Assembly: GCA_903879705.1 (NCBI GenBank) | Contig: CAIRMO010000096.1 | Coordinates: 1 to 40,353 of the forward strand | Reading direction: 5' to 3' | From: an uncultured Candidatus Competibacteraceae bacterium | GTDB taxonomy: Bacteria > Pseudomonadota > Gammaproteobacteria > Competibacterales > Competibacteraceae | Length of the DNA: 40,353 nt | Shown: positions 19,271 through 30,163 of the stretch, piece after piece | Numbering within the stretch: position 1 is the stretch's first letter | Layout: each line of letters starts with the position of its first letter | Position numbers and translations under genes: made by a program | Notes under the pieces: model-generated | Told to the model about the DNA's origin: nothing | The model's input: only the letters and a program-made list of their open reading frames with translations | The model's database searches: none

Positions 19271-19747
19271 TCAGGAGCGGCGACGGTTAATCGCCGCCCG
19301 CGCCAGTCGATCCACCCGCTCATTGTCGCGATGGCCGCTGTGGCCACGCACCCATTGCCATTTGACCTGGTGTGGGGCCAGCGCCGCTTCCAGCCGTTGC
19401 CATAAATCCACGTTCTTAACCGGTTGCCGGTCGGCGGTTTTCCAGCCGCGCCGTTTCCACCCCGCCAGCCATTCAGTCATTCCCTTCATCACATACTGGC
19501 TGTCGGTGTAAATCTGCACCTGTGCGGGTCGCTCTAATGCTTCCAATCCATGGATAGCTGCCAACATTTCCATCCGGTTGTTGGTCGTCGCCGGTTCGCC
19601 GCCGGACAATTCCTTTTCATGGGTTCCACAGCGCAGCAGCGCCCCCCAGCCGCCGGGGCCGGGGTTACCCGAACAGGCACCGTCGGTAAACAGAAGCACC
19701 TGGTTTTGCTCGGCATCGGGTTGTTCGGTAGCACGGCTATCGTTCAA
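19271..19747 (-). CDS. rnhA: Ribonuclease HI
   Basis: RNase HI cuts the RNA strand of RNA-DNA hybrids. From TTG 19747 the protein has 158 residues, close to E. coli (155). The four carboxylates are visible: Asp in [17 protein letters not shown], Glu in [10 protein letters not shown], Asp in YTDSQYV and Asp in NERVDRLA, with the catalytic His in GHSGHRDN. No ATG fits; the frame is open upstream, but that sequence is unlike RNase H and contains a repeat. TTG 19747 has GAGG about 10 bases upstream. The gene is convergent with manC and divergent from the topoisomerase-helicase gene. Confidence 0.93.
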
Positions 19748-19834
19748 GAGAATAAGCCTCGATGTTCTCCGTGTGAAAGGAAGGCGATCAGATAAATCGC
19801 TCGCTGTCGTCAGTGTTTTACCGCTGTACTCTAA

Positions 19835-19870
19835 CCTTCTCCCCCTCCCCCGTAAAATCAGGAGAGGGGA
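19835..19870. repeat. Palindromic repeat between rnhA and the topoisomerase gene
   Basis: A C-rich run (CTTCTCCCCCTCCCCCG) is followed by a G-rich run (GGAGAGGGGA) after a short AT-rich spacer, forming an imperfect hairpin. It resembles the short palindrome seen inside the neighbouring gene at 20572, so both may belong to one dispersed family. Confidence 0.45.
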
Positions 19871-19900
19871 CCGAACGCTTACGACCGAGGCAATAAGCAG

Positions 19901-22900
19901 ATGAGCATTGCGGTTATCGCCGAAAAACCCGCCGTCGCCCGCGACATCGCTAAAACGCTGGGCGCCCGCCAGCGTGGCGATGGTTTTTTGCACGGCAACG
20001 GTTATGTGGTGACTTGGGCGATTGGACATCTGGTGCGGTTGGCTGAACCCCATGAAATTGATCCGGCCTGGAAACGCTGGCGGCGCGAGTTGCTGCCGAT
20101 GGTGCCGGAATGCTGGCCGCTGCGGGTGAGCGACAGCACCCGCGACCAGTTTGAAGCGGTGCGCCGCATTCTTAATGACGATAGCATTGACCGGGTGGTT
20201 TGCGCGACTGATGCCGGGCGCGAAGGTGAATTGATTTTCCGCTATCTCTACGAAGCCGCCGGGTGTCGTAAACCCTTTAGCCGGCTGTGGATTTCTTCGC
20301 TGACCCCGGACGCGATCCGCTTGGGTTTCCAGAAATTGCGCGACGGCTCCGAGTTCGATCCATTAGCGGCGGCGGCGCGGGGTCGCAGTCAAGCGGACTG
20401 GCTGGTGGGGATGAATCTGTCGCGGGCTTATACCTTGGCCTGTGGCCATTTTGGCGATGAGGTGTTGTCGGTCGGACGGGTGCAAACGCCGACCTTGGCG
20501 ATGGTGGTGGAGCGTGATCTGGCGATCCGCGCCTTTGTGACCGAGGATTATCGGGAAGTCGTTGCGAGCTTTACTCCCCTTTCCCCCAACCCCTCTCCCG
20601 CACGCGGGCAAGGGGAGAAAGCAGCAGGGAAGGAGCTACTGCGTTATCAGGGCGTCTGGTTTCGCGGCGAGCGCCCGGAACCCAAGGCCAAGCGCCTGCC
20701 TGCCGATGGGGAAGAAGCCGCCCGGATCGTGGCCCGCGCCCCATCCGGTCAGGCCGCGATTGAATCCCGCGTCGCCGAAACCCGCCGCGCCCCGCCGCCG
20801 TTGCTATATGACCTCACCGAATTACAGCGCCATGCTAACCGGCTATATGGCTTCAGCGCTCACACCACGCTCGATCTCGCCCAAAAGCTGTATGAGCAGC
20901 ACAAGCTCATCAGCTATCCGCGCACCGACAGCCGCCATTTGTCAGCATCGGTAGCGGCAACGCTGGGGGCAGTGGTCGCGGCGATTGAGGAACCCTACCG
21001 GGATCGACTGGCGCCAACCACGGGTCAGCGGCCATTGCCCAGCCGGTTCGTAGACGATGCCAAGGTCACCGATCATCACGCCATTATTCCAACGCCGGTC
21101 ATGGCCCGTGCCGGGTTGGCCGGTGATGAAAAGAAGCTTTACGACCTGATTTGTCGGCGCGTGCTGATGGCTTGGCACGACGATCATATCTGGGCAGTGA
21201 CCACTTTAATCACCGCAATCACGGGTCGGGAAGCGGAGGGAACCACCCTGGTTGACCGTTACCACAGCAGCGGCACGGCGGTGGAGCAGATCGGCTGGAA
21301 GGTTCTGGAAATCGGCGCGGAGCAAAATTCTCCCCAATCTCCCGTTGCCAAAGGGGGGAGTCCCGCCAAAGCACCCAGCAAGCGCAAGACTAAAACGGCT
21401 GCGGCTGAGGGTTCTGCCGGCGATGACGCCGAGCAAAGTTTGCCGCCGGGCTTGACTATTGGTCAGGCGCAGCGGGTGCTGGAAGCCCGCGCCATGGCCA
21501 AGCAGACCCGGCCCCCGCCGCGGTTGACCGAGGCAACGCTGCTGACGGCGATGGAAACCGCCGGGCGGCATCTGGAGGACAAGGAACTGTCGGCGGCCAT
21601 GAAGGACAGTGGCCTGGGTACGCCGGCCACCCGCGCCGACACCATCGAAACCCTGCTCAAGCGCCAGTACATGACCCGCGACGGCAAGGCGCTGAACGCG
21701 ACCGAGCGCGGTATTCGGTTGATTCAGGCGGTGCAGACCCAAATCAAGAGTCCGCAACTGACCGGCGAATGGGAGGCGCGGCTCAAGCGGATTCAGCGCG
21801 GGGAGGGTGATTTGGCCGGATTCATGGCCGATATTGCAACCTTCGTGCAGCAGGCGGTGGCGCTGGCGTTTAGTGCGCCGGTTCCGCCGCCGGTGGTTAG
21901 CGTCATTGCCCCGGAAATAGCTGCCGCGTCCCGCCGGGAACCGGTTGCCGGCGATCGTCTCCTGGAGCTGTTGCAAAACGAATTCCGGTTGCCGACGTTC
22001 CGGCCTCATCAGGAGCAGGTTTGTCGCACCGTGACCGAGGGCCGCGACGTGTTGCTGGTGATGCCGACCGGTGCCGGTAAATCGCTCTGTTTTCAGTTGC
22101 CCGGCCTGGCTCGTGCGGGAACCACCCTGGTCGTTTCGCCGCTGATCGCGCTGATGGAAGATCAGGTCGCCAAGCTCTGCGAACTCGGTCTGCGGGCCGA
22201 GCGGATTCATTCCGGGCGGGATCGGGCCGCCTCGCGCCAGGTCTGCGTCGAGTATTTGCAGGGAAATCTGGATTATCTGTTCATCGCCCCGGAGCGGTTG
22301 AGCGTGCCGGGTTTTCCCGAAATGCTGGCCAAGCGCAAACCGGTGCTGATTGCGGTGGACGAGGCGCATTGCATCTCGCAATGGGGCCACGATTTCCGCC
22401 CCGATTACCGGATGCTGGGCCGACATTTGCCGCTGTTGCGACCCGCGCCGGTAATCGCCCTGACCGCGACCGCGACGGTGCAGGTGCAGGATGACATTGT
22501 CGGGCAAATCGGCATGGGCCAGGTCAACCGCTACATTCACGGGTTCCGCCGACCCAATCTGGCAGTAGAAACGGTGGAGACCAAACGGGGACCGGATCGG
22601 CATGAAGCGGTGCAGCGGATTCTGGCCGATCCGGGCCGGCGTCCCGCTATTGTCTACGCCCCGACCCGCAAGGAGACCGAGGCGCTGGCGCTGGAATTAG
22701 CGACCGCTTATCCGACCGCCGCCTATCACGCCGGCATGGATCCGCTGAATCGTGAACGGGTGCAGGGCGGGTTCAACGCCAGCCGGTTGCAGGTGATCGT
22801 CGCCACGATTGCGTTTGGGATGGGCATCGACAAGCCTGACATTCGCACCGTGATTCATACCGCCTTGCCGGGCAGCGTCGCGGGCTATTACCAGGAAATT

Positions 22901-23710
22901 GGCCGGGCCGGGCGTGACGGTCAGCCCGCCCGCGTCATTCTGTTGTATTCCTACGCCGATTTATGCATGCACGAGTTTTTTCATCAGCGCGACTATCCTG
23001 ACCCTGAGCGATTGGCGCGGATTTTCGCGGCGTTGAACGTCGATCCGCAACCCAAAGCGGTGTTGCGCGACTGGCTGGCGATGGATCCGGATGAGTTTGA
23101 CGCGGCAGTGGATAAGCTGCTGGTGCATGGCGGCGCTCAGCGGGACTTTGAGAACAATCTCAGCCGGGGCGAAGACGGTTGGCGACAGCCCTATCAGCAA
23201 CAGAGCGAGCATAAGCTGCGCGAACCCCGGCAGATGCTCGAATTCGCCGACCGGGCGACCGGGTGCCGGATGGTGCGGTTGGTGCGGCATTTTGGCGACC
23301 GCGATGATGATCAGCCCTGTGGGATTTGCGATGTGTGCGCGCCACAGGCCACTATCGCCCGCTACACGCGCCGCTTGACCCGCGCCGAAAGCCAATGGAT
23401 CTTGCAAGTATTGGACGGATTGCGTCAGCGGGAAGGGCAAACCCCCCGCCAATTGTGCGAACGATTGGCCGAGGGACTCGCGGATCGGCGCAGCGGCGAG
23501 CGGTTGCTGGAAGCGATGGCCGGGGCTGGACTGGTCGAGTTACGCGATGATGCGTTCAGCAAGGACGGCAAGGTGATTGCCTTCCGGCGGGTTCACCTTA
23601 CCGAAGCCGGGCGCAAGGCCGGGATTGGCGAGCTAGGGACGGTGCGGTTGACCGAGAAAGCGGCCGTGTTGACTGCGCCGGTGCGCAAGCGGCCCGTGGG
23701 AAAAACCTGA
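19901..23710 (+). CDS. Topoisomerase III - RecQ helicase fusion protein
   Basis: A 1269-residue protein uniting two enzymes normally encoded apart. Residues 1-655 are a TopB-like type IA topoisomerase: Toprim residues Glu8 (IAEKP) and ATDAGREGE (102-110), the catalytic Tyr339 in [12 protein letters not shown], and the later [13 protein letters not shown]. After a proline-rich linker (about 656-685), residues 686-1150 are a RecQ-type helicase: FRPHQ, Walker A PTGAGKS (722-728), DEAH (820-823), the aromatic-rich loop [12 protein letters not shown], motif [13 protein letters not shown] and the RecQ zinc cluster Cys1122, Cys1140, Cys1143, Cys1146. A winged-helix region follows; no HRDC domain is seen. 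RecQ and Top3 jointly unlink double Holliday junctions, so the fusion likely acts as one decatenation machine. GAGG lies 10 bases before the ATG. Two repeat-derived inserts lie inside the topoisomerase part. Confidence 0.93.
20572..20628. repeat. Palindromic repeat read in frame inside the topoisomerase domain
   Basis: The segment has CCCCTCTCCCGC, ACGCGGGCAAGGGGAG and surrounding C-rich and purine-rich tracts, a typical intergenic palindrome of proteobacteria. Here it is translated as residues about 225-244 ([18 protein letters not shown]). The residues flanking it (EVVASFTP and [10 protein letters not shown]) read on as one topoisomerase domain, so the insert is tolerated, probably as a surface loop. 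Confidence 0.65.
21326..21367. repeat. Second in-frame palindromic repeat in the topoisomerase domain
   Basis: TCTCCCCAATCTCCC followed by GTTGCCAAAGGGGGGAG is a C-run/G-run palindrome of the kind usually found between genes. It is translated as [15 protein letters not shown] (about residues 476-490), followed by a lysine- and alanine-rich stretch, between the topoisomerase segments at 462-470 and 512 onward. Confidence 0.5.
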
Positions 23711-26635: not shown

Positions 26636-26680
26636 AAACCCTCTCTCTTGATAAACCCGCCGCGAATCGCTTCCATTCCC

Positions 26681-29600
26681 ATGTCCGCATCCCCCGCTAA
26701 ACTCGATGATCATGGCGGTGAACCGCTGGCCTTGACGGTCAGCAACGCCCCGCTCAACCCGGTTTTTTTTGATCCCGCGCACAAACGCTGGCCCCGGCTG
26801 CGGCTGGGCATAACCTTCTTTGGTCTGGCCCTGTCCCTATTGCTGGGGGCGCTGGTGTTGAGCGTCCTGGCCAGTCCGATCTTGCCGGCCCTCCATCTAC
26901 CCGGTTCCAGCCTGTTGCCGGATGGCGCACATGCCATTCCCGCCGTCCCCACCTTGACTCCCGAGCGGCCGCTGACCCGCCGCGACCGGGCGCTGCGCGA
27001 GACTGAACTCAAATTAAAACAGGAACATGAGCGCGATTTGCAGCAATTGCTGGCCCAGCCCCCGCAGGCCGCGCATATCCCGAACCAGCATCCGCTAACC
27101 GTCGGATTCTTCGTGAACTGGGACGATTCCAGCCTGAGTTCGCTCAAGCAGAACCTGGACAGCCTGGACATGGTGATCGCCGAATGGCTGCATCTTGCCG
27201 CCGAAGACGGCGCGCTGCGCGAAAACGATCCGGCCCGCCAGACCTATGCCACCGACTACCTGCGGGTCCATCGTCCCGATCTCTCGATTATTCCGCTGGT
27301 CAACAACTGGAACGGCCAGGAGTGGGAGGGTGCCAAGCTGACCCGAATGCTGGCCAATCCGGCAGCGCGAGCGCACACCATCGCCCAATTGACGGCCTAT
27401 GTGGAACACCACCATTTTGCCGGGATCAGCATTGATTTTGAAGAGATTGCGGCCAAGGCCCAGCCCGATTTTCAGCGCTTCATCGCCGAGTTGTACGCGG
27501 TGATGCACCCGAAGCAGTTGCTGGTCTCGGTCAATGTCCCGGCCAGCGACCCGGCTTTCGACTACCGCAAGCTGGCGGCCAGCGCTGATCACCTGATTCT
27601 AATGGCCTACGATGAACACTGGGCCACCGGCGCCCCGGGGCCTATCGCCAGTTTGCCGTGGTTTGCCAAGGTGTTGCGCCAGCGTCAACGCGATGTCCCC
27701 GCCGGCAAGATGATCGTCGCCATTGGCAATTACGCCTACGACTGGGAAAAGGGCCATCCTGCCGAGGAACGGACCTTCGAGGAAGCGGTGCTGACCGCCA
27801 AGGAATCGGAAGGCAACATCCGTCTGGACCCGGCTTCGCTGAATCCGACCTTCGCTTACGCGGATGACAACGACCATGTCCATCATGTCTGGATGCTGGA
27901 TGCAGTGACTGCATTCAACCAGCTTGCGACCGCCCGGGCGGTGCAGCCGCACGGTTTTGCCCTGTGGCGACTGGGCAGCGAAGACCCGGCGCTCTGGCAG
28001 GTGTTTGGCAAGGACGTCCCGCTGGATGCCGCCCATGCGGCCTCACTGGGCGATATGCGCTTCGGCTATGGGCTGGATTATGAAGGCAAGGGCGAGGTGC
28101 TGGAAATTACCGCCCACCCGCAACCGGGAAGCCGCGAAATCCAGTTTGATCCGAAGCGCGGGTTGATTACCGGGGAACATTACACCGTGTTTCCCCTGCC
28201 CTATGTGATCACCCGGCACGGCGGCGCGGACCACAAGGTGGCCCTGACTTTCGATGATGGCCCCGATCCGCAATACACCCCGCAAATTCTCGATGCCTTG
28301 CATACCGCGGGAGTGCCGGCGACCTTCTTCATCATCGGCATGAACGGGCAGATGCACCCGGAGGTACTGCGCCGCATCGTCGCTGAAGGCCACGAACTCG
28401 GCAATCACACCTTTACCCACCCCAATATCTCGACCATTTCGCCGGCCCAGTTTCAACTGGAACTGTCGGCGACCCAGCATTTGCTGGCCAGTGCGGTGGG
28501 CCGCCATTCGCTGCTGTTCCGCCCGCCCTATGCGGTGGATGCCGAGCCGGAAACCATTGATCAGGTGCGTCCCATCGAACTGGCGGCCGCCCAGGGTTAT
28601 CTGGTGGTGGGGATGCAGATTGATCCCGACGACTGGGAACGGCCCGGGGTGGATGAAATTGTGCGGCGCACGGTGGCAGAAGCGGAACGCGGCGAAGGCA
28701 ACATGATCCTGCTGCATGACTCCGGCGGCGACCGCAGCCAGACCGTCGCGGCGATCCCGAAAATCGTGGGAGCGCTGCGGAGCCGGGGCTTTCAATTCGT
28801 CACCGTTTCCGATCTGCTGGGGCGCAGCCGCGACGAAGTGATGCCGCTGTTGCCGCCCGAAAACCAGTGGCAAACCTGGCTCGATGGCGCGGCGTTCGGG
28901 TTGATCAACTGGACGGCCACCGCGATTCACTGGCTATTTCTGATCGGGATTGTGCTGGGCATCGCCCGCTTGCTGTTCATTGGCACGCTCGCGTTGTACC
29001 AGCGGTGGGGCCGTCGGCGGGCGGTCTTCGATCCAGCCTATGCACCTTCGGTCGCGGTGGTTGTACCCGCCCACAACGAAGAGAAGGTGATCATACAAAC
29101 GATGACTTCACTGCTGGCCGGCGATCACCCGGCATCCTTCGAGATCATCGTGGTGGATGACGGTTCCAGCGACGCGACCGCCGCCCTGGTCAAAGAGACG
29201 TTCGTCGCCCATCCGCAAGTGCGGGTCTACACCCGGCCCAATGGCGGCAAACCGGCGGCGCTGAACTTCGGCATCGCGCAGACCGCGGCGGAGATCGTGG
29301 TGGCGCTGGATGCCGATACGGTGTTCAGCCGTGACACGATTCTCAAGCTGGTCCGGCATTTCGCTGACCCGAAGGTGGGCGCGGTGGCCGGCAATACCAA
29401 GGTCGGCAACCGGATCAACCTGCTCACCCGCTGGCAGGCGCTGGAGTACATCACCAGCCAGAACCTGGATCGACGGGCGTTCGATGTCCTCAACTGCATC
29501 ACGGTGGTGCCGGGTGCGGTGGGGGCTTGGCGGCGCGAACTGATCGAGCAGGCTGGCGGCTTTACCGCGTCGACGCTGGCCGAGGACACTGACCTGACCT

Positions 29601-30163
29601 TGGCGATCCGCAAGCGGGGCTACGCCATCGTTTACGAGGATGAAGCGATAGCACTGACCGAAGCGCCCGATACGGTGCGCGGGTTCATCCGTCAGCGCTA
29701 TCGATGGATGTTTGGCACCATGCAGGCCGCCTGGAAACACCGCGATGCGCTGTTCCGCCCGCGCTACGGCGCACTGGGCTTTGTGGCCCTGCCCAACGTG
29801 ATTATTTTCCAGGTGCTGTTTCCGCTGATCTCGCCGATCATGGATTTGTTGCTGATCGGCTCGCTGGCCACTGCGGCGTTCAACCATTGGCAACACCCTG
29901 CCGAGTATTCTCCCGATACGCTGTGGCGGGTGCTGTTCTACTACGCATTGTTCGTGACGGTGGATTATCTGGCGGCCATTCTGGCATTTGCGCTGGAGCG
30001 CAAGGAGAGCTGGGGGCTGCTGATCTGGCTATTCTGGCAGCGCTTTTTCTATCGCCAGTTGATGTACTACGTGGCGGTTAAAAGCACACTGACTTCATTA
30101 CGCGGGGCAGTGGTCGGCTGGGGCAAGCTGGAACGGAAAGCGACGGTGCGGACCACAGGTTGA
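26681..30163 (+). CDS. Three-module exopolysaccharide protein: GH18-like, polysaccharide deacetylase, GT2 synthase
   Basis: From ATG 26681 the protein has 1160 residues (TTG 26648 is an alternative start). An N-terminal TM helix (about 41-68) is followed by a charged stalk, a GH18-like domain (about 139-440) with GISIDFEEI, in which the catalytic Glu and preceding Asp remain although earlier Asp positions of the usual DxxDxDxE are lost, and a NodB deacetylase (about 515-715) with TFDDGPD, the zinc histidines HTFTH, RPPY and LLHDSG. A TM region (about 745-775) leads to a GT2 synthase (about 788-1015) with VVDDGSSD, DAD, AEDTD and QRYRW, then C-terminal TM helices. It combines the jobs of PgaB-like and PgaC-like proteins: probably polymerising a hexosamine polymer inside and trimming or deacetylating it outside. 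That substrate is inferred. Confidence 0.88.
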   Translation: MSASPAKLDDHGGEPLALTVSNAPLNPVFFDPAHKRWPRLRLGITFFGLALSLLLGALVLSVLASPILPALHLPGSSLLPDGAHAIPAVPTLTPERPLTRRDRALRETELKLKQEHERDLQQLLAQPPQAAHIPNQHPLTVGFFVNWDDSSLSSLKQNLDSLDMVIAEWLHLAAEDGALRENDPARQTYATDYLRVHRPDLSIIPLVNNWNGQEWEGAKLTRMLANPAARAHTIAQLTAYVEHHHFAGISIDFEEIAAKAQPDFQRFIAELYAVMHPKQLLVSVNVPASDPAFDYRKLAASADHLILMAYDEHWATGAPGPIASLPWFAKVLRQRQRDVPAGKMIVAIGNYAYDWEKGHPAEERTFEEAVLTAKESEGNIRLDPASLNPTFAYADDNDHVHHVWMLDAVTAFNQLATARAVQPHGFALWRLGSEDPALWQVFGKDVPLDAAHAASLGDMRFGYGLDYEGKGEVLEITAHPQPGSREIQFDPKRGLITGEHYTVFPLPYVITRHGGADHKVALTFDDGPDPQYTPQILDALHTAGVPATFFIIGMNGQMHPEVLRRIVAEGHELGNHTFTHPNISTISPAQFQLELSATQHLLASAVGRHSLLFRPPYAVDAEPETIDQVRPIELAAAQGYLVVGMQIDPDDWERPGVDEIVRRTVAEAERGEGNMILLHDSGGDRSQTVAAIPKIVGALRSRGFQFVTVSDLLGRSRDEVMPLLPPENQWQTWLDGAAFGLINWTATAIHWLFLIGIVLGIARLLFIGTLALYQRWGRRRAVFDPAYAPSVAVVVPAHNEEKVIIQTMTSLLAGDHPASFEIIVVDDGSSDATAALVKETFVAHPQVRVYTRPNGGKPAALNFGIAQTAAEIVVALDADTVFSRDTILKLVRHFADPKVGAVAGNTKVGNRINLLTRWQALEYITSQNLDRRAFDVLNCITVVPGAVGAWRRELIEQAGGFTASTLAEDTDLTLAIRKRGYAIVYEDEAIALTEAPDTVRGFIRQRYRWMFGTMQAAWKHRDALFRPRYGALGFVALPNVIIFQVLFPLISPIMDLLLIGSLATAAFNHWQHPAEYSPDTLWRVLFYYALFVTVDYLAAILAFALERKESWGLLIWLFWQRFFYRQLMYYVAVKSTLTSLRGAVVGWGKLERKATVRTTG

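Follow-up and report, generated by a model that had tools for sequence, protein, structure and literature searches.

Introduction

As separate enzymes, the form in which most cells produce them, RecQ opens duplex DNA and topoisomerase III passes strands, an established division of labor. Eukaryotes bring the two activities together in the BLM/Sgs1-TOP3-RMI1 dissolvasome, a non-covalent complex scaffolded by RMI, and in reverse gyrase a helicase module precedes a topoisomerase module. One study describes reverse gyrase as a fusion of helicase-like and topoisomerase modules (PMC8185306). In bacteria, the pairing of RecQ with topoisomerase III inside cells is disputed: according to a 2026 study of E. 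coli, topoisomerase III partners RecG, not RecQ, no physical interaction between RecQ and topoisomerase III has been observed, and deleting recQ in topA mutants had an effect unlike that of deleting topB (PMC13244152). These findings argue against an easy transfer of function from textbook pairs; the same study also notes that topoisomerase III can be modulated by RecQ in vitro.

Here we analyze a gene in which the two enzymes are encoded as one chain, found in a 40,353-nucleotide stretch of DNA (the window) from an uncultured Candidatus Competibacteraceae bacterium. The fusion belongs to the same two enzyme families, and carries the same catalytic motifs, as the separate TopB and RecQ of E. 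coli. The E. coli enzymes, however, are two free proteins, whereas the fusion is a single chain with a helicase from a different RecQ clade, and this helicase half has an extra domain before its zinc domain. Like the BLM/Sgs1-TOP3-RMI1 complex, the fusion couples a RecQ helicase to topoisomerase III, but it is covalent and bacterial and places the topoisomerase first. With reverse gyrase it shares the combination of an SF2 helicase-like ATPase and a type IA topoisomerase in one polypeptide, although the order is opposite, the score falls below the family cut-off, and the helicase is of the RecQ type with a zinc domain. RecQ-UvrD-like fusions and ~714-amino-acid RecQ-like helicases of sister genomes likewise join a RecQ core to another module; of four such proteins, two have partners that match UvrD-type helicases and none has a topoisomerase as its partner, and the 714-amino-acid protein has what appears from its residues to be a phosphoribosyltransferase-like C terminus. 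No protein of either kind scored over the cut-off in the host genome.

No TopB-RecQ fusion was described among the open-access papers listed in our literature searches, and the available parts of PMC8185306, PMC13244152 and PMC7017083 do not mention one. Because the proteins are in public genomes, prior notice elsewhere is possible.

Results

One frame encodes topoisomerase III followed by RecQ

A first-pass annotation, made from the letters of the window, had read positions 19901-23710 as one uninterrupted frame in which a type IA topoisomerase precedes a RecQ helicase. The frame is indeed open from its ATG for 1269 codons, Pfam and NCBIfam models recognize both enzymes within it, and the Pfam domain search placed the topoisomerase at residues 1-655 and the helicase at residues 685-1269, in the order proposed. 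The parts of the gene are as follows.

19901..23710, + strand: TopB-RecQ fusion gene, 1269 aa; uninterrupted ATG frame, with the same single frame in relatives
19901..21865, + strand: topoisomerase III half, aa 1-655; Pfam, NCBIfam PRK07726 and TIGR01056 over cut-off, fold match to E. coli topoisomerase III
19913-20299, + strand: Toprim domain, aa 5-133; Pfam, over cut-off
20357-21826, + strand: Topoisom_bac domain, aa 153-642; Pfam, over cut-off
20588..20635, + strand: disordered insert, aa 230-245; pLDDT <50, in-frame translation of a GC-rich, palindrome-like repeat, variable among relatives
20915..20917, + strand: codon of the catalytic Tyr339; invariant in the alignment, within the region that aligns to E. 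coli topoisomerase III
21320..21430, + strand: second disordered insert, aa 474-510; pLDDT <50, variable among relatives
21866..21952, + strand: linker between the halves, aa 656-684; pLDDT <50 at aa 665-677, length variable among fused relatives
21953..23707, + strand: RecQ half, aa 685-1269; Pfam, TIGR00614 over cut-off, fold matches to RecQ catalytic cores
22001-22489, + strand: DEAD domain, aa 701-863; Pfam, over cut-off
22607-22921, + strand: Helicase_C domain, aa 903-1007; Pfam, over cut-off
22952..23170, + strand: extra helical domain and small hairpin, aa ~1018-1090; from the AlphaFold model and the spacing between helicase core and zinc domain
23192-23338, + strand: RecQ_Zn_bind (zinc domain), aa 1098-1146; Pfam, over cut-off
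23381..23599, + strand: predicted C-terminal winged helix, aa ~1161-1233; modelled as three helices and two strands, no HRDC after it

The host protein is a Bacillus-type topoisomerase III core joined by a short disordered linker to a RecQ helicase. Its topoisomerase half reached two TopB models (PRK07726, 635.5 bits against a cut-off of 597; TIGR01056, 547.8 against 515.75) and missed two others (PRK08173, 498.7 against 1058; PRK14724, 416.4 against 1088). The RecQ half reached the family model TIGR00614 (366.8 against 219.8) and missed the equivalog models TIGR01389 (423.6 against 640.2) and PRK11057 (342.7 against 1015), scores that place it as a member of the RecQ family lying below the models for RecQ proper. 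The PRK07726 and TIGR00614 scores are both well outside what chance would give. By sequence, the closest solved structures were E. coli topoisomerase III (aligned over aa 5-431 and again over 482-675) and RecQ catalytic cores (aa 689-1022, E. coli).

AlphaFold predicted the RecQ half (aa 640-1269) with a pLDDT of 88.1 and a pTM of 0.80, and its top fold matches were RecQ cores. For aa 1-1200 the pLDDT was 81.6 and the pTM 0.55, with E. coli topoisomerase III as the top fold match and RecQ cores at ranks 47-49. The drop in pTM from 0.80 for the RecQ half to 0.55 for the longer chain means that the prediction gives the halves no fixed position relative to each other. The candidate winged helix at aa 1161-1233 is modelled with three helices and two strands, and the whole RecQ half folds like RecQ cores, but the Pfam RQC model was not matched. 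The annotation had seen no HRDC domain, and none appeared in aa 1030-1269 even at an E-value limit of 10.

A 108-aa ORF upstream (19578-19904, overlapping the start of the fusion by 4 bases) was taken to be spurious, with no tblastn match in loci L010-L038 and no NCBIfam match. The metG and mannose-1-phosphate genes beside the fusion had no match beyond the window's own locus in the set of loci searched, most of which had only ~1.5 kb of flank, and hence provide no synteny argument.

Catalytic residues of both halves are conserved

Tyr339 is the catalytic tyrosine, as annotated, and sits in SYPRTDS. The helicase motifs that the annotation named are also present: Walker A is GAGKS at 724-728, DEAH occupies 820-823, motif VI lies at 998-1007, and the four-cysteine zinc cluster consists of C1122, C1140, C1143 and C1146. 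The Toprim acidic residues call for an amendment, in that E8, D104 and E108 are present but Gly106 takes the place of the second Asp in the textbook DxDxE (D104-A-G-R-E108). A Gly at this position is common to the fused proteins compared and to most of the free-standing Bacillus-type and Acidobacteriota topoisomerase III proteins compared, and therefore characterizes the subfamily and does not point to an inactive enzyme. Glu8, Asp104, Glu108, Tyr339, K727, DEAH 820-823 and the four cysteines were invariant across 23 aligned fused proteins. Between the window and its nearest relative, dN/dS was 0.121 for the topoisomerase half and 0.093 for the RecQ half, and over six pairs it ranged from 0.10 to 0.19 and from 0.09 to 0.13, respectively. 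Values this low show purifying selection on both halves.

The fusion stands in for both enzymes in the host genome

Whether the fusion replaces separate topB and recQ genes or supplements them had been the deciding question of the first reading. The host genome (3.62 Mb in 148 contigs, rated 100% complete) contains two matches to the type IA topoisomerase core (PF01131), one being the fusion and the other an 825-residue TopA-type frame, such that the PF01131 search found no separate topoisomerase III. Nor was there a second TIGR00614 match over the cut-off, the seven weaker helicases scoring at most 55.9 bits. Since neither another topoisomerase III nor a further RecQ above the cut-off was found, the fusion stands in for both in this genome, as a replacement.

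The single-frame fusion was found in 26 of the 39 genomes of the host family, one of which (G035) has a frame change inside the RecQ half. In three more (G004, G028 and G030) the fusion is cut by contig ends, four (G012, G019, G034 and G060) contain fragments of it, and in G011, G025 and G027 it is absent or reduced to a scrap; G011 and G025, with completeness ratings of 100% and 94%, have no fusion and no RecQ over the cut-off. A second topoisomerase III was seen in none of the 26 single-frame genomes, and in 15 of them the fusion is the sole TIGR00614 match at an E value of 1e-20 or better. Four extra RecQ-like matches, from three sister genomes, all fell below the RecQ equivalog cut-offs, and two of them match UvrD-type helicases.

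The remaining three genomes (G006, G009 and G016) have no fusion and an ordinary RecQ instead. Among these, only G009 has a separate topoisomerase III, and the other two show TopA alone. The reading of the fusion as an enzyme that does both jobs is weakened by G006 and G016, whose ordinary RecQ is accompanied by no topoisomerase III match at all, and by G011 and G025, which lack both the fusion and a RecQ over the cut-off.

The architecture recurs in other phyla

Beyond the host family, we scored the best two to three candidates per genome at a match limit of E 1e-120, and the resulting cross-phylum counts are lower bounds. Single-frame fusions occur in at least 81 of 195 Myxococcota genomes (for some of which the fusion was judged by frame length and the number of matches for that genome), in at least 10 of 396 Acidobacteriota, including G228, and in at least 3 of 240 Bdellovibrionota. 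The other 13 matched Myxococcota comprise 11 that match the RecQ half alone and two (G1123 and G1155) without both halves in one frame. A sample of the host class yielded the fusion in at least 5 of 369 genomes, from the host family and one other family (f58); the frame of the f58 genome G505 lacks about the first 90 residues, possibly through a frameshift. A named genome collection added further records from Bryobacterales, Myxococcales, Myxococcaceae and Bdellovibrionales. The architecture is thus neither unique nor local, and it is common in Myxococcota.

The fusion is not always the only enzyme of its kind. A single TIGR00614 match was present in 15 of 42 fusion genomes (a set that includes two decayed and two contig-split fusions). 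Among the Myxococcota fusion genomes checked, 21 of 22 had two or more TIGR00614 (RecQ-family) matches, and there the fusion is therefore not the only RecQ. As for type IA topoisomerases, seven of eight fusion genomes had two matches, the fusion and one more, and the eighth (G063) had four.

In the related genomes the halves were found apart only as contig breaks, as the frame change in G035, and as two decayed fusions. Two candidates for two-gene relatives, G322 and G452, were rejected as such, their matches adjoining contig ends (L125 ends 3390/3469; L127, 3522/3524); together with G004 and G030, whose pieces also lie beside contig ends, they were counted as neither fused nor unfused. The decayed fusions are those of the Acidobacteriota G317 (on a 6.4 Mb contig) and G357, with open frames of 875 and 898 aa that cover the topoisomerase, the linker and the first of the two helicase lobes, in which Walker A and DEAH are altered; both frames end before the second lobe. 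In G317 the search match reads on beyond the open frame, crossing two stops, as far as query residue 910. Both genomes also encode RecQ in a frame of its own, 52% (G317) and 51% (G357) identical to the window's RecQ half. Between the two decayed fusion genes, dN/dS was 0.074 for the topoisomerase, 0.60 for the linker (from 40 codons only) and 0.14 for the helicase remnant, which thus still looks selected. That two Acidobacteriota keep the topoisomerase with a broken helicase half indicates that the coupling can be lost.

Trees of the two halves group the fused proteins differently

We placed the halves in quick trees, built without bootstrap and containing long branches (L165 and L204 in the topoisomerase tree, thirteen rows in the RecQ tree). 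In the topoisomerase tree (77 rows, after omitting duplicates and part of the host-family and Myxococcota loci), the fused halves formed one clade (SH-aLRT 99), inside which were four non-fused rows: two matches adjoining contig ends and the two decayed fusions. In the RecQ tree (91 of the 115 collected RecQ rows), the fused halves fell within a larger clade (99) that also contained free-standing RecQs of Acidobacteriota, Bdellovibrionota and others, with the fused and free-standing members interleaved such that 9-10 state changes are needed. Forcing the fused RecQ halves into one clade was rejected (p-AU 8e-11, on a subsample of 69 rows). Probably there was one fusion, followed by repeated loss of the topoisomerase half, a history that we prefer over repeated fusion of the same topoisomerase type. 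Across 47 fused proteins, identity distances in one half correlate with those in the other (r 0.92 over 1081 pairs; 0.67 over 818 between-group pairs), which fits joint inheritance without proving it.

Motif VI and the first zinc cysteine lie 104-144 residues apart in the fused proteins and in their free-standing relatives, as against 45-54 in ordinary RecQs; 12 free-standing rows outside the fused-RecQ clade also have long spacers, six of 104-144 and six of 202-219. In the fused relatives L042, L044, L149, L032, L222 and L226 the RecQ half is followed by HRDC, a domain that many but not all RecQs have, with no HRDC match reported in L158, L172 and L031. In both the topoisomerase and RecQ trees, L032 is the first branch of the host family, and the other intact frames of the family have C-terminal tails of at most 17 residues. 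Because the HRDC-bearing L032 branches first and the other tails are this short, HRDC was probably ancestral and lost within the host family.

The ordinary RecQs of G006, G009 and G016 cluster with those of other families in the host class, and the fused RecQ lies in a clade separate from them (SH-aLRT 99). Because these ordinary RecQs group elsewhere, the host family probably gained the fusion horizontally, with displacement of its native RecQ; the case for displacement of a native topoisomerase III is weaker. A fuller history is more tentative, and we hold it to be somewhat short of an even bet: the fusion would have arisen once, probably near Myxococcota/Acidobacteriota, and spread between phyla; it would have displaced RecQ and become the sole topoisomerase III in the host family; it would repeatedly have shed its topoisomerase half, leaving orphan RecQs; and in at least one lineage its helicase half would have decayed to a non-catalytic, still selected module.

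Discussion

The fusion is likely to be a genuine enzyme in which one chain performs the tasks of topoisomerase III and RecQ alike, and its job is probably the unlinking of DNA at recombination and replication intermediates. The RecQ half would move 3'-5' on single strands and open duplex DNA where hemicatenanes, D-loops, converging forks or double Holliday junctions occur. The topoisomerase half, tethered alongside, would then cut the exposed single strand with Tyr339, pass the other strand and reseal. The linker, 29-46 aa long in 26 host-family loci and 6-254 aa in 44 other loci, is rich in Ala, Pro and Gly, a composition and length as expected of a tether, and it would act as a flexible connection and not as a rigid coupling. 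A flexible tether would allow duplex opening and strand passage at one site without recruitment of one protein by another, and to that extent the enzyme might be seen as the built-in dissolvasome that the first-pass annotation suggested.

The halves might instead be joined only for co-expression or equal dosage, each acting uncoupled as an ordinary topoisomerase III or RecQ. Such an arrangement would agree with the wide range of linker lengths (6-254 aa), with the free-standing RecQ halves found in the same clade in many genomes, and with the lack of a fixed packing of the halves in the model. We nevertheless consider it unlikely, given that no free-standing member of the fused topoisomerase clade is among the 77 rows listed and that operons would give equal dosage without fusion. 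Less probable still is a reverse-gyrase analogue of opposite order that introduces positive supercoils: an SF2 helicase and a type IA topoisomerase do share one chain and the reverse gyrase model gives a weak match, but at 87.2 bits this is far below the cut-off of 471.7, the topoisomerase comes first, and the helicase is of the RecQ type with a zinc domain. We reject an assembly or sequencing artefact joining two neighboring genes as next to impossible, because nothing at the host locus points to one (the nearest hint being the G035 frame change), independent assemblies from 26 of 39 host-family genomes and from three further bacterial groups have both halves in one frame, some fused relatives sit on multi-megabase contigs, and dN/dS is low on both sides.

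Against the dispute over whether RecQ and topoisomerase III pair in bacterial cells, a natural fusion that has been kept over a wide evolutionary distance, and that is the sole copy found of both enzymes in the host genome, is natural evidence that their coupling is useful somewhere in bacteria. The single-chain enzyme offers a one-protein system for measuring dissolution, and with the fusion as frequent as it is in Myxococcota, genetics should be feasible in culturable species.

A repeat in the topoisomerase half of the fusion

Within the topoisomerase III half of the TopB-RecQ fusion, a loop holds a palindrome-like repeat that is translated in frame:

Window 20588-20635: palindrome-like GC-rich repeat of the CCCCTCTCCC...GGGGAG type

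The repeat core, CCCTCTCCC, occurs three times in the window, compared with 0.33 copies expected, and repeat-like peptides were also found at the matching position in two relatives (L012 and L019).

Other frames in the window and in related genomes

Elsewhere in the window, two enzyme domains are joined in one chain, with a polysaccharide deacetylase at residues 527-724 and a PgaC/NodC-like glycosyltransferase at residues 794-1145:

Window 26648-30163: 1171-aa deacetylase-glycosyltransferase frame

Among sister genomes of the same family, frames at L218 and L221 link a RecQ-like core to a region that matches UvrD-type helicases. Beside its fusion, the Myxococcales genome G063 carries two additional topoisomerase frames (L210 and L211), and in both the Toprim motif is of the type found in E. 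coli topoisomerase III.

Broken helicase lobes in Acidobacteriota

Two Acidobacteriota carry topoisomerase III with a degenerate helicase lobe in which Walker A and DEAH are both broken:

L224:3928-6552: topoisomerase III with degenerate helicase lobe
L124: second case

The dN/dS of this lobe is 0.14, from which it appears to be under continuing selection.
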